Source of the DNA: Methanobacteriota archaeon
GTDB taxonomy: Archaea > Halobacteriota > Syntropharchaeia > JACQPP01
Assembly (NCBI GenBank): GCA_016207465.1
Contig: JACQPP010000075.1
Location: 1-35,317, forward strand
Reading direction: 5' to 3'
DNA: 35,317 bases
The translations under genes were made by a program, and so were the position numbers. The notes beneath the pieces were generated by a model. It made no database searches. It was not told the DNA's origin and saw only the letters and a program-made list of their open reading frames with translations. Positions 5,183-32,611 of this stretch are shown piece after piece. How positions within the stretch are numbered: the first letter of the stretch is position 1; every line of letters starts with the position of its first letter.

Positions 5183-5239
5183 CCCCCGCTCGCTTCGCTC
5201 GCGGGGGGTGTCTTTTCCCTCGCTCCGCTCGGGAAAAAA
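5183..5239. repeat. Two adjacent inverted repeats with GAGCGAAGCGAG-like loops
   Basis: CCCCCGCtcgcttcgctcGCGGGGGG and TTTTCCCtcgctccgctcGGGAAAA. Confidence 0.8.
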
Positions 5240-10965: not shown

Positions 10966-11667
10966 ATGACTTCAGCGGCCTGTCCCAAGTGCAATACCCC
11001 GGGTGAGGCCGTCTTCTGCCCCCGGTGCGACACCCTTCTCCCCCCGCGCGAGCTGGACCACTTCACCCTCCTCGGGGCCCCCCGTCGGCCCTGGCTGGAG
11101 GAGGGGCCCCTGAAGGAGGCCTACCACCGGCTCAGCATGAGGCTCCACCCCGACCACGCGAGGGAGCGGAGGGAGGACGCGGTGGTGTGGTCGAGCCATC
11201 TGAACAAGGCCTACGCCACCCTGCGGGACCCCCGGGACCGCCTCCAATACCTGGTCTCCCTGGAGACCGGCTCGAACCCCCTGGGGCCCGGGACGGCCCC
11301 GGTGACCCCAGACATGATGAAACTCTCCCTGGAGGTCCAGAAGTTCTGCCAGGCCTTCGACCCCTGGTCCAGCCGGCCCCCCCGGGCCTCTCCCATGCTG
11401 GCGGCGGGCCGCGCCCTGGAGAAAGCGGAGCATGAGAAGAGGCTCGCCACCCTCCAGGCCGCCGTCGCCGAGCGCCGCCGGAGGGTGATGGAGGAAATCC
11501 GGGCCCTCGACGCCCGGTGGACCACTGGCGAACGGGCCCCCCTGGGCAAGAAACTCGCGGAGCAGGCCTCCTGGCTCTCCTACCTCAACAAGTTCGACTC
11601 GCTGCTGGCCGAGCGGCTCCTCGCCCTCCGCTCCGGGACCCCCATCGCCCCCGAGCCCTTCCATTAA
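10966..11667 (+). CDS. hscB: HscB-type J-domain co-chaperone with N-terminal zinc finger
   Basis: CPKC..CPRC N-terminus; J-domain YHRLSMRLHPDHA; C-terminal three-helix region. Confidence 0.9.
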   Translation: MTSAACPKCNTPGEAVFCPRCDTLLPPRELDHFTLLGAPRRPWLEEGPLKEAYHRLSMRLHPDHARERREDAVVWSSHLNKAYATLRDPRDRLQYLVSLETGSNPLGPGTAPVTPDMMKLSLEVQKFCQAFDPWSSRPPRASPMLAAGRALEKAEHEKRLATLQAAVAERRRRVMEEIRALDARWTTGERAPLGKKLAEQASWLSYLNKFDSLLAERLLALRSGTPIAPEPFH

Positions 11668-11815
11668 ATCCCTTTTCTTTCTTTTGCCACGCCCGCCTTC
11701 GGCGGTCTAACGGAGGGCTCGCGTTGTGCTTCGCAAAACGCGAAGCCCTCCTGCAAAAGAAAGAAAAGCGATTTTATTCGGAAAAGAAAGAGAATGGTCG
11801 GATGCGTTCAGAACG
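11666..11815 (+). repeat. Dispersed structured element, copy 1
   Basis: Outer 16-bp inverted repeat CTTTTCTTTCTTTTGC/GCAAAAGAAAGAAAAG (11672-11687 / 11753-11768) enclosing two hairpins separated by CTAACG. Shares flanks AAATCCCTTTTCTTTCTTTTGCCACGCCCG and ...GATGCGTTCAGAACG with the inverted copy at 26876-27021. Confidence 0.92.
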
Positions 11816-18570: not shown

Positions 18571-18599
18571 GCTTTTCCCGAGCGAAGCGAGGGAAAAGC
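18571..18599. repeat. 9-bp inverted repeat ending 3 nt before the ABC ATPase start codon
   Basis: GCTTTTCCC-gagcgaagcga-GGGAAAAGC then ACC-ATG. Confidence 0.9.
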
Positions 18600-20377: not shown

Positions 20378-20478
20378 TCAGCGCTTCTCCTCTTTTTTCT
20401 TAAACCCCAACGCCAGGCTGTTGATACAGTACCTCATCCCCGTCGGCTCCAGCCCATCGTCGAACACGCGGCCCCGCG
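20378..20478 (-). pseudogene. 3' remnant of a second msrB
   Basis: Reverse translation [30 protein letters not shown] parallels [30 protein letters not shown] of the intact msrB; the rest of the gene is absent. Confidence 0.85.
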
Positions 20479-21014: not shown

Positions 21015-21425
21015 CTACGTTTTCCCCTCTCTTTTCTTGAACCCCAGCGCCAGGCTGTTGATGCAGTACCGGAGTCCGGTCGGCTCCGGTCCGTCATCAA
21101 ACACGTGTCCCAGGTGTCCCCCGCACTTCTTGCACATGACCTCCACCCTCCGCATCCCGAATGTGGAGTCGTCCTCCTCCCGGATGCAGGTCTCATCGGC
21201 GGGCTTGTAGAAGGAGGGCCATCCGGTGCCGGATTCAAATTTGGTGTCGCTGGTGAAGAGGTCGGCTCCGCACCCGGCGCAGATGTATGTGCCCGGGTCC
21301 TTGTTGGCGAGCCATTTTCCGGTCCACGGGCGCTCGGTGCCCTTCTCGCGGAGGACGTGGTACTGGGCCGGGGCGAGTTTTTTGCGCCACTCGTCGTCCT
21401 GGGGGTCTTTGCGCTTCAGGAGCAT
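21015..21425 (-). CDS. msrB: Peptide-methionine (R)-S-oxide reductase
   Basis: [42 protein letters not shown]. Confidence 0.95.
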
Positions 21426-26875: not shown

Positions 26876-27021
26876 CGTTCTGAACGCATCAAGCCATTTT
26901 CTTTCTTTTCCGAATGAAATCGCTTTTCTTTCTTTTGCAGCAGCCGCCGACCCCTGTGGGTCGGCGGCTGCGTTAGCCCGGCCTGCAGGGCCGGGCGTGG
27001 CAAAAGAAAGAAAAGGGATTT
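26876..27021 (-). repeat. Dispersed structured element, copy 2 (inverted relative to copy 1)
   Basis: Same outer arms (26923-26938 / 27000-27015). Inner hairpins CAGCCGCCGACCC(ctgt)GGGTCGGCGGCTG and GCCCGGCC(tgcag)GGCCGGGC separated by CGTTAG. Confidence 0.92.
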
Positions 27022-27023
27022 GA

Positions 27024-27094
27024 GCCTGGCGCGTAACTCCGGGGTTCATCGCTGGCCTTCGGCCTTCTTCCCGCCGGTAACCCTCGCGCCAGGC
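27024..27094. repeat. Long-spaced perfect 10-bp inverted repeat with an internal hairpin
   Basis: GCCTGGCGCG ... CGCGCCAGGC, enclosing GGCCTTCGGCC. Confidence 0.7.
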
Positions 27095-27266
27095 CTGTGC
27101 CGCTCCGGGGTATTTCCGCACTCATTGTCTGCCATGTGGCATCTTGTGCGAAGACCGTTCCGGGCGGCTGTGGCCCCCATCTTGCATCCGGGTTTGGTCA
27201 CAGCGGGGCTTGGCCCCGGCTCCCCCCGGTCCTCAATGGGGGCAATGAGATAATACGAGGGCCCCC

Positions 27267-27274
27267 TATTTATA
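27267..27274 (+). promoter_or_regulatory. TATA box of the methyltransferase gene
   Basis: TATTTATA; predicted TSS at ~27297 falls on the in-frame GTG at 27298. Confidence 0.6.
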
Positions 27275-27297
27275 CTCCGCCAATGACCCGGCCTCCG

Positions 27298-30773: not shown

Positions 30774-31172
30774 GGGGAGAGTGGAAGGGCCGCCGCCGGT
30801 CCCGCCCGCAAGGGCAGGGCCGAGGAAAGTCCCCCCACCACCCACATCGGGTTCGCCCGGTGTGGAAAAGGCGGGCCCCGAGATGGGGCGCGGTGAGAAC
30901 CGCGGCTCTGGCACAGAAACGATACGGTCCCCCTTGTGGGCGATGACACCGCAAGGTTGAGGTCGAGGGAGGGCCGGTGAAACGGCGAAACCCCGCCGGT
31001 GCAAGTCGCTCCGACGACGCCCAGACCAATGCGGCCAGGCCCGAACCCTCCGCCCCCGCCGCCGCGTGCGGCAGGGACCCGGCGCAAGCCGGGGGAGAAC
31101 CGGAGACCCCTGAACCTTAAACGGGGACGGGGTGAGGGCCGAACAGAAGGGGGCTTACTCTCCACACTCCCC
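30774..31172 (+). ncRNA. rnpB: RNase P RNA
   Basis: GAGGAAAGTCC, ACAGAAAC, GGTGAAACGGCGAAACCCC, GCAAG and ACAGAAGGGGGCTTAC conserved blocks. P1 pairing ggggagagtgga with tccacactcccc. Confidence 0.96.
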
Positions 31173-31174
31173 AA

Positions 31175-31214
31175 CAATAGATTTAAGACCGAACGGTATC
31201 GGTTGACTCTATTG
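31175..31214. promoter_or_regulatory. Nested palindrome upstream of the recombinase gene
   Basis: CAATAG atttaag ACCGA acggta TCGGT tgact CTATTG (spacings approximate). Confidence 0.5.
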
Positions 31215-31225
31215 GGGGCATAGAA

Positions 31226-32611
31226 ATGGGCCGAAAAAATGGGGAGGTATATAAACCCTGGGGGGACACCGAGCCCAAAATACTCCAACTCCTCGACGAC
31301 AATACCCTACCCCCCGAGACCCGCTCTCACCTCGCCCACCACTCCAACTCGTTGAAGGACAAGGGCTGCGTCTACAGCCACCGCCACAAGGAAATCTACC
31401 GCGCCCACCGCTTCCTCACCTGGTGGAAGAAGACCAAGACACCCACCCTCGACGACGTGAACCGATTCCTCGGCGGACTCCGCTCCCAAGGCCACAAGGA
31501 GAAGGACATCGCCCACTTCGCCGGCTCCATCAAGCGCTACTACACCCGCGCCAACAAGGGCATCCCCCCCGAGGCCCTCCGGCTCCTCTCCACCACCCCG
31601 CGCGAGAAGCGCAAGAACCGCCCCCACTGGACCCAGGAGGACGTCGAGAAGATGATCACCGCGGCCGACCACCCCCAGAACCGCGCCATCATCATGGCCC
31701 ACATCGAATCCGGGGCCCGGCCCGAAGAATTCCTCAAGCTCTCCATCGGCGACTTCACCTTCGCCCCCGACCACAGCCACGCCAAGGTCAACCTGCCCAC
31801 CGGAAAAACCGGCCAATACACCCAGACCTGGGTCCGCACCATCCCCTACCTTCTCCTCTGGTTCCGCCACCACCCCGGCCCCAAGAAACCCGACGGCACC
31901 CTCGACCCCGCTGCCCCTCTCTGGGTAAGCCGGACTCCGCGTGCCCGGGGACAGCGGCTGAGCTACTCTGGCCTCTACCACATCCTCCAAGACGTAGGGA
32001 AGGCCGCGGGCATCCCCCCGGAGAAGCGCAACCCTTACTCGGCCCGCCGTGGAAACGCCACCTGGCTCCTCTCCCAAGGATGGACCAAAGAGAAGGTCAA
32101 CATGTGGCAGGGCCGCCTCCCCGGCTCCCGCCTCATCGACATCTACTCCCAAGATTTTGACCTCTCCCAGGAGATGCTCCGAATGACCGGGCTCCTGACC
32201 GGCAACGAAGAAAAAGACAAACCCGACCGCCTCCGGCCCATTAAATGCGAATGGTGCGGCCACATGAACGAGGCCGTCCCACCCCCCAAAGTCTGCCAAT
32301 GCGGAAAGCCCCTCAGCATCGAAGCCGCCCAAGAGTTCGAGGAGAAGAGCCAGGCCAGAATCAAGAAACTGGAGGACCAAGTCGCAGAATACCAGCATCT
32401 TAACCTCACCGTGCTGAAGGGCATGGAGGAGCTAAAGTCGATGTTCCTGAAAGACGCTATCGAGGCCCGCGCTTTCGAACTGCTTCAGGAGCAAATGGTG
32501 GAGGGAAAACTCGATCCCCTCGCTTTCAAACTGGTTATGGCGCAGGTGATGGAGGGAAAACTCGTTCAGAAAGCGGAAGCCAAAGCCGTTCCTGCGGTTA
32601 AAGGCTCGTGA
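31226..32611 (+). CDS. Tyrosine recombinase/integrase with C-terminal zinc ribbon and coiled coil
   Basis: SAM-like N-domain; ESGARPEEFLKL (Arg I), NPYSARRGNATWLL (HxxR-like box with Tyr for His), RLIDIYSQ (Tyr); CEWCG...CQCG ribbon. Confidence 0.87.
   Translation: MGRKNGEVYKPWGDTEPKILQLLDDNTLPPETRSHLAHHSNSLKDKGCVYSHRHKEIYRAHRFLTWWKKTKTPTLDDVNRFLGGLRSQGHKEKDIAHFAGSIKRYYTRANKGIPPEALRLLSTTPREKRKNRPHWTQEDVEKMITAADHPQNRAIIMAHIESGARPEEFLKLSIGDFTFAPDHSHAKVNLPTGKTGQYTQTWVRTIPYLLLWFRHHPGPKKPDGTLDPAAPLWVSRTPRARGQRLSYSGLYHILQDVGKAAGIPPEKRNPYSARRGNATWLLSQGWTKEKVNMWQGRLPGSRLIDIYSQDFDLSQEMLRMTGLLTGNEEKDKPDRLRPIKCEWCGHMNEAVPPPKVCQCGKPLSIEAAQEFEEKSQARIKKLEDQVAEYQHLNLTVLKGMEELKSMFLKDAIEARAFELLQEQMVEGKLDPLAFKLVMAQVMEGKLVQKAEAKAVPAVKGS

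Follow-up and report, generated by a model that had tools for sequence, protein, structure and literature searches.

The window (the whole stretch of DNA analysed, 35,317 nucleotides) carries two copies of a dispersed element in which a long hairpin is followed by a second purine tract that mirrors the purine arm of the stem. Complement plus mirror on one strand is, as judged from the letters, the layout predicted for an intrastrand triplex, of the purine motif on this strand and of the pyrimidine motif on the other. We consider the chances evenly balanced that the element is a noncoding dispersed DNA repeat, REP/MITE-like and of a triplex-hairpin type, which belongs to the ANME-1-containing class of archaea and acts as DNA. 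We infer, each point separately, that DNA rather than RNA is the acting form, that the repeats are mobile, and that any terminator activity is a side-effect.

Anatomy of the element and its second purine tract

The sequence-only reading had placed copy 1 at 11666-11815 (+) and copy 2 at 26876-27021 (-), and its coordinates, arms, flanks, linker and tail were all borne out on inspection of both copies. The parts follow one another in the order AAATCCCTTTTCTTTCTTTTGC, CAC, hairpin 1, TAAC, hairpin 2, T, GCAAAAGAAAGAAAAGCGATTT, a short turn, the second purine tract GGAAAAGAAAGAAAA and finally a tail with CGTTCAGAACG at its end. In copy 1 (all parts on the + strand), the outer left arm AAATCCCTTTTCTTTCTTTTGC, which is the pyrimidine strand (Y), spans 11666-11687 and is followed by the linker CAC (11688-11690), tip hairpin 1 (11691-11707), the linker TAAC (11708-11711) and tip hairpin 2 (11712-11751), in which a G x A mismatch is present. 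The outer right arm GCAAAAGAAAGAAAAGCGATTT (11753-11774) comprises the purine arm (R1) and the stem base, with a C x C mismatch opposite C11671. It is succeeded by the second purine tract (R2) GGAAAAGAAAGAGAA at 11780-11794, a mirror of R1 with one change and the proposed third strand, and by a conserved tail (11795-11815), the last part of which is the short palindrome CGTTCAGAACG. In copy 2 (all parts on the - strand), the outer left arm (27000-27021) lies directly 3' of an HgcG-like RNA gene and is followed by the linker CAC (26997-26999), tip hairpin 1 (26976-26996), the linker TAAC (26972-26975), tip hairpin 2 (26940-26971), the outer right arm with R1 (26917-26938), R2 (26897-26911), here an exact mirror of R1 over 14 nt, and the conserved tail (26876-26896). 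The two copies are 100% identical over the 30 nt of left arm and flank, and 91% identical over the 68 nt of right arm and tail. The internal stems have the layout claimed for them, but the long hairpin of copy 1 contains a bulged A besides its G x A mismatch, and the hairpins of copy 2 measure 8 and 14 bp, the latter having been given as 13 bp.

The same reading had described the fold as a three-way junction. The fold itself was supported; the description was incomplete in that it overlooked the second purine tract and that the two-hairpin junction proved to be a variable tip on a core. The tract R2 lies downstream of the outer stem and mirrors the purine arm R1 of that stem (11780-11794 in copy 1; 26897-26911 in copy 2). 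Elsewhere in the host, R1 and R2 are AAAAGAGAAAAGAAAA and AAAGAAAAGAGAAAAGA in copy C21, and AAAAAAGAGAAAAGAAAAA and AAAGAAAAGAGAAAAAAGA in copy C154; in both cases R2 equals R1 read backwards. Over all elements found, R2 matched R1 better as a mirror than as a direct repeat in 53, worse in 3 and equally well in 14. When the 13 tract types were re-paired at random 20,000 times, no re-pairing reached the observed mirror fit, while the direct fit gave a p of 0.06; related copies and near-symmetric tracts are included in these tests, so that they are not independent trials, and the asymmetric types agree. The mirror relation is maintained despite changes of the tract in the host genome, in ANME-1 and in DPANN archaea. 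A direct repeat of R1 was ruled out, as R2 tracks the reversed tract. Since the mirror is kept when the tract sequence changes, a hairpin with a third strand fits better than a bare three-way junction. An intrastrand triplex may form from Y, R1 and R2. A-rich purine-motif triplexes are weak in general; the pyrimidine motif, rich in T.A-T, seems on general grounds the likelier form. Evidence of evolution keeping a triplex geometry is scarce. In this family, stem and mirror arm change in concert in more than one archaeal phylum, making the triplex question testable with a few oligonucleotides. In one ANME-1 genome (L057, 1501-1640), the unit of R1, linker and R2 occurs three times in tandem in steps of 39 nt, suggesting slippage.

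As we picture the repeat at work, the long Y:R1 hairpin would fold whenever the DNA becomes single-stranded in replication, transcription or strand transfer, and R2 would lie against the Y:R1 stem as a third strand; on the other strand, a second pyrimidine tract would lie against the purine arm. The perfect tip hairpins (none, one or two) would be freely exchanged. The repeats would spread and be lost in the fashion of REPs and MITEs through some enzyme or copying process, and those at gene edges would last, being nearly harmless in such places. Incidentally, the left end would provide both an in-frame stop (T+AA or TG+A) and a run of T-rich sequence able to end transcription.

Pairing in the outer stem and the variable tips

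The outer stem measures 21 bp; adjoining the tract, a single C x C mismatch interrupts it in every aligned copy. The stem covaries: the base reads AAATC/GATTT, GAATC/GATTC or GAACC/GGTTC, and the top pair is C-G or T-A. None of the dinucleotide shuffles (n = 200) folded as well as the element, with z of -5.4, -10.5 and -8.5 for copy 1 folded as RNA and copy 2 folded on both strands, indicating that the fold is not due to chance. In an alignment of 13 copies, which mixes two registers of hairpin 2, 95.7% of cells were paired compared to 46-58% with the partners slid, and double-sided changes occurred at 21 of 42 pairs compared to 8.0 in shuffles and 2-7 when slid. Because of the mixed registers, parsing the tip of each copy separately provides the better evidence. 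The 20 copies with a two-hairpin tip contain 449 tip pairs, 448 Watson-Crick and a single G.U, with differing stem sequences. In ten copies, hairpin 2 contains the G x A mismatch. Thus, the covarying hairpins proposed from the two window copies recur: further copies exist, and their stems still pair though they change.

Wobble pairs are usually more frequent in RNA helices that are under selection. The near absence of wobble in the tips therefore favours a DNA palindrome, maintained at the level of DNA, over a selected RNA. In addition, template switching during DNA replication can generate and mend perfect hairpins with no need for selection on an RNA (PMC8794818). With one G.U in 449 pairs and a process at hand that makes and repairs such stems, we see no proof of a selected RNA in the covariation, and the earlier argument from conserved pairing to selection, on an RNA fold or a DNA cruciform, is not warranted as far as the RNA is concerned. 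The same near absence of G.U in strongly covarying stems is a caution for RNA discovery based on covariation, as a DNA palindrome can mimic a structured RNA. We accordingly find it very doubtful that the element is a structured or cis-regulatory RNA selected for its fold, in which the opposite strand might form a U.A-U triple helix. The strong covariation, the low energy at which either strand folds as RNA, the suitability of the mirror relation for a major-groove RNA triplex and the position of some ANME-1 copies directly upstream of start codons would fit such an RNA; besides the missing wobble, however, the tips vary freely or are absent, no Rfam family matches, the neighbouring genes are unrelated and the host copies lie mostly downstream of genes.

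It is likewise quite improbable that the covariation arose without any selection, with template-switch mutagenesis at DNA palindromes making and keeping perfect hairpins and the repeats being decaying debris. Perfect stems can be created and repaired in this way (PMC8794818), and near-zero wobble, the replacement of whole stems between copies and decayed ANME-1 copies are all in keeping with it. However, two mismatches (C x C in the outer stem, G x A in hairpin 2) have been preserved instead of being corrected, mirror repeats are not produced by template switching, and the main type shows no variation in its linkers CAC and TAAC. The conserved mismatches, together with the overlap with stop codons described below, could reflect a selected function.

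The tip behaves as a variable module on the outer core. In the host it holds no hairpin (C121), one (C103, C105) or two, and in ANME-1 it ranges from 0 to at least 37 nt, the 37-nt piece having two hairpins. In the sister genomes G049 and G053/G054, the tips differ at the site of an ACT-domain gene. The tip module ACGC..GCTAACG is confined to these elements in the host genome, apart from one chance match; independent insertion of the module elsewhere was ruled out, none being present outside these elements in that genome. In L003 (C52), L004 (C76) and L022 (C119), another double-hairpin piece (ACTCGCGGACTTCGTCCGC..., about 50 nt) lies within the second purine tract, each time at the same point, and the left arm of L022 carries a different two-hairpin insert as well.

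Occurrence in the host and its relatives, and position at gene edges

The element had been called dispersed, and searches of the host genome and its relatives confirmed this. The right-arm pattern gave 31 matches in the 1.50-Mb host genome and the reversed control gave none. A covariance model built from 13 host copies found about 21 strong elements, together with about 9 that are weaker or shorter; the host copies are spread over many contigs in both orientations. For the element, Rfam 15 yielded chance matches only, at gathering and at relaxed thresholds. No longer, gene-bearing copy was seen, and an autonomous parent copy was rejected, since the host genome showed no left and right arms widely separated by a gene. 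No link between the element and a transposase emerged, and a search of the host genome (74% complete) for the Y1 transposase family PF01797 gave 0 candidates. Other features of the window include an inverted pair of the short palindrome CTTTTCCCTCGCTCCGCTCGGGAAAA (5212-5237 and 18573-18598, 96% complementary), possibly another repeat family; a 90-nt direct repeat of 81% (20385-20474 and 21022-21111), possibly two neighbouring paralogous genes; and an archaeal RNase P RNA gene (RNaseP_arch, 30777-31169), which marks the genome as archaeal and is closely followed by a gene for a recombinase of the phage integrase family (together 30777-32608, +).

The core also occurs in relatives of the same class, Syntropharchaeia, the sampled members of which include Methanophagales (ANME-1). 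Here it takes the form TAAACCCTTTTCTTTT-tip-AAAAGAAAAGCGTTTTCGGAAAAGAAAA, and a second ANME-1 type with the linker CCTGTGCT is likewise mirrored. Within the host's class, 32 of 58 genomes contained the gapped core pattern, compared to 0 of 339 other genomes of the phylum, and reversed controls gave 0. For the AT-rich core, blastn lacked sensitivity (2 of 99 genomes of relatives); the covariance model recovered it. The same layout with other tract sequences was found in Micrarchaeota (L106, L108, L111, L125) and in one contig of Aenigmatarchaeota (L131); judged by this shared arrangement, its presence in DPANN archaea may be due to horizontal transfer or to a general archaeal motif. Viral carriage was ruled out, as pattern matches in viral contigs were due to chance and none had the anatomy of the element.

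Most host copies sit downstream of genes, with unrelated gene neighbours. For 12 of them, an ORF with coding-type GC3 ends on the second base of the element, indicating that the element completes the stop codon. In copy 1, the first AA completes the TAA stop of a DnaJ-like gene (10966-11667), which precedes an HSP70 gene. Copy 2 lies directly downstream of the HgcG-like RNA gene (27016-27287, -; Rfam HgcG, E 1.9e-12, below the gathering score), which has a TATA-like TATAAATA box near its 5' end, and other copies directly follow tRNAs. The host genes downstream of the copies are convergent and co-directional in similar numbers. In ANME-1, the left end abuts stop codons or, on the other strand, start codons, and some copies lie between divergent genes, e.g. 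purC/hisB. Short, half or full forms abut tRNA genes (L028, L023, L085, L007 near 640), some on the 5' side and others on the 3' side; forms 5' of tRNA genes leave no room for an ordinary promoter.

These positions bear on a possible, though on balance unlikely, function as a bidirectional transcription terminator or 3'-end element, in which the T-rich arm after the stop would end the transcript, the two T-rich runs of the opposite strand would serve the convergent gene and the fold would protect the 3' end. The 12 copies beginning at a stop codon and those directly after the HgcG-like RNA or tRNAs agree with this, as does the fact that about half of the copies are followed by convergent genes with ends just beyond the element. 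Moreover, the window has a GC content of 66%, and most of its long T-rich runs belong to the two elements; most other genes of the window, however, do without such runs. The pure terminator reading is further weakened by the ANME-1 copies at start codons and between divergent genes, and the latter contradict a universal terminator. Short forms 5' of tRNA genes also speak against it, and copy 1 splits the DnaJ-like and HSP70 genes, a pair that is often co-transcribed. Finally, a T-tract terminator needs neither a complementary nor a mirrored arm.

At the stop of one ACT-domain gene of ANME-1, 17 of 51 genomes carry the element and 34 lack it. Mapped on the tree of this gene, the pattern requires a minimum of 7 changes, a single-gene tree being a weak guide to species history. 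Filled genes end in HQ (rarely LQ; VLQ), with the TAA of the element as stop, and empty relatives of the same genus end in HQP (g14), HQPL (g17) or HPPL (g10). In g6, several related ACT-domain genes end in HQ without the element, and decayed copies were found at this gene in G047, G051, G014 and G035. Neither a target duplication nor a clean insertion was seen; at this gene, the intergenic DNA differs too. This pattern is one of dispersal or loss with drift, not of strict conservation. As filled sites share the exact position in several genera, old inheritance with repeated loss is suggested as much as repeated gain, which tempers the REP/MITE-like reading, since much of the pattern may be inherited. 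A bolder proposal, which we regard as unlikely, is an undescribed family of archaeal mobile DNA in ANME-1 relatives and some DPANN, in which a folded single strand with a triple-helical stem would be recognised, the hairpin tips would be interchangeable and the element's own stop codon would let it land in the last codons of genes. ANME-1 archaea are uncultured and important as methane oxidisers; in them the family marks the edges of genes and changes both C-termini and stop codons, and it may also determine where transcripts end.

Comparison with known repeats

REP/RAYT elements and PATE-type MITEs resemble the archaeal element in being short, dispersed, noncoding intergenic palindromes near gene ends with mosaic or nested copies. 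In contrast to REP/RAYT, no tag tetranucleotide was identified and the layout is an inverted plus a mirror repeat; mobilisation by the REP/RAYT route was rejected, as the 74%-complete host genome yielded no PF01797 candidate. MITE-like features are the dispersed noncoding copies and their presence or absence among relatives (17 filled, 34 empty); neither terminal inverted repeats of a parent transposon nor a parent-length copy nor target duplication was seen, the inverted repeat being internal with R2 and the tail outside. The double hairpin elements of fungal mitochondria consist of two adjacent GC-rich hairpins with varying yet paired stems, inserted in other sequences, whereas the archaeal pair tops a longer stem and was found nowhere else in the genome. 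H-DNA shares the polypurine mirror repeat capable of an intramolecular triplex; unlike in H-DNA, one strand suffices in the archaeal element, as the third, complementary tract is built in.

A further likeness is to the potential intrastrand triplex repeats (PIT/TM_ECO; Holder et al. 2015), which have already been catalogued in bacteria by motif search (PMC4666352). They share with the archaeal element one strand with a pyrimidine stem, a loop, a complementary purine stem, a loop and a second purine stem, and they are likewise short and dispersed in many copies per genome, with strain-variable presence and no known function. The archaeal sequence has the three stems with allowed triplets (Y-R-R or Y-Y-R) that define an ITxF/PIT, but exceeds the size limits (stem 6-15 nt, loops 1-6 nt). 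In the host, the tip loop measures about 60-75 nt and the linker 11 nt; ANME-1 forms have tips of 0-5 nt, yet their linkers are mostly 7 nt. TM_ECO is G/C-rich with 9-nt stems and loops of 3-6 nt (PMC4666352), whereas the archaeal element has A-rich tracts of about 9-19 nt, loops of up to about 70 nt holding two perfect hairpins, a linker that forms part of the stem base, and archaeal hosts. The sequence-only description as novel-looking is thus fair for the family, while the general architecture was already known from bacteria (PMC4666352).
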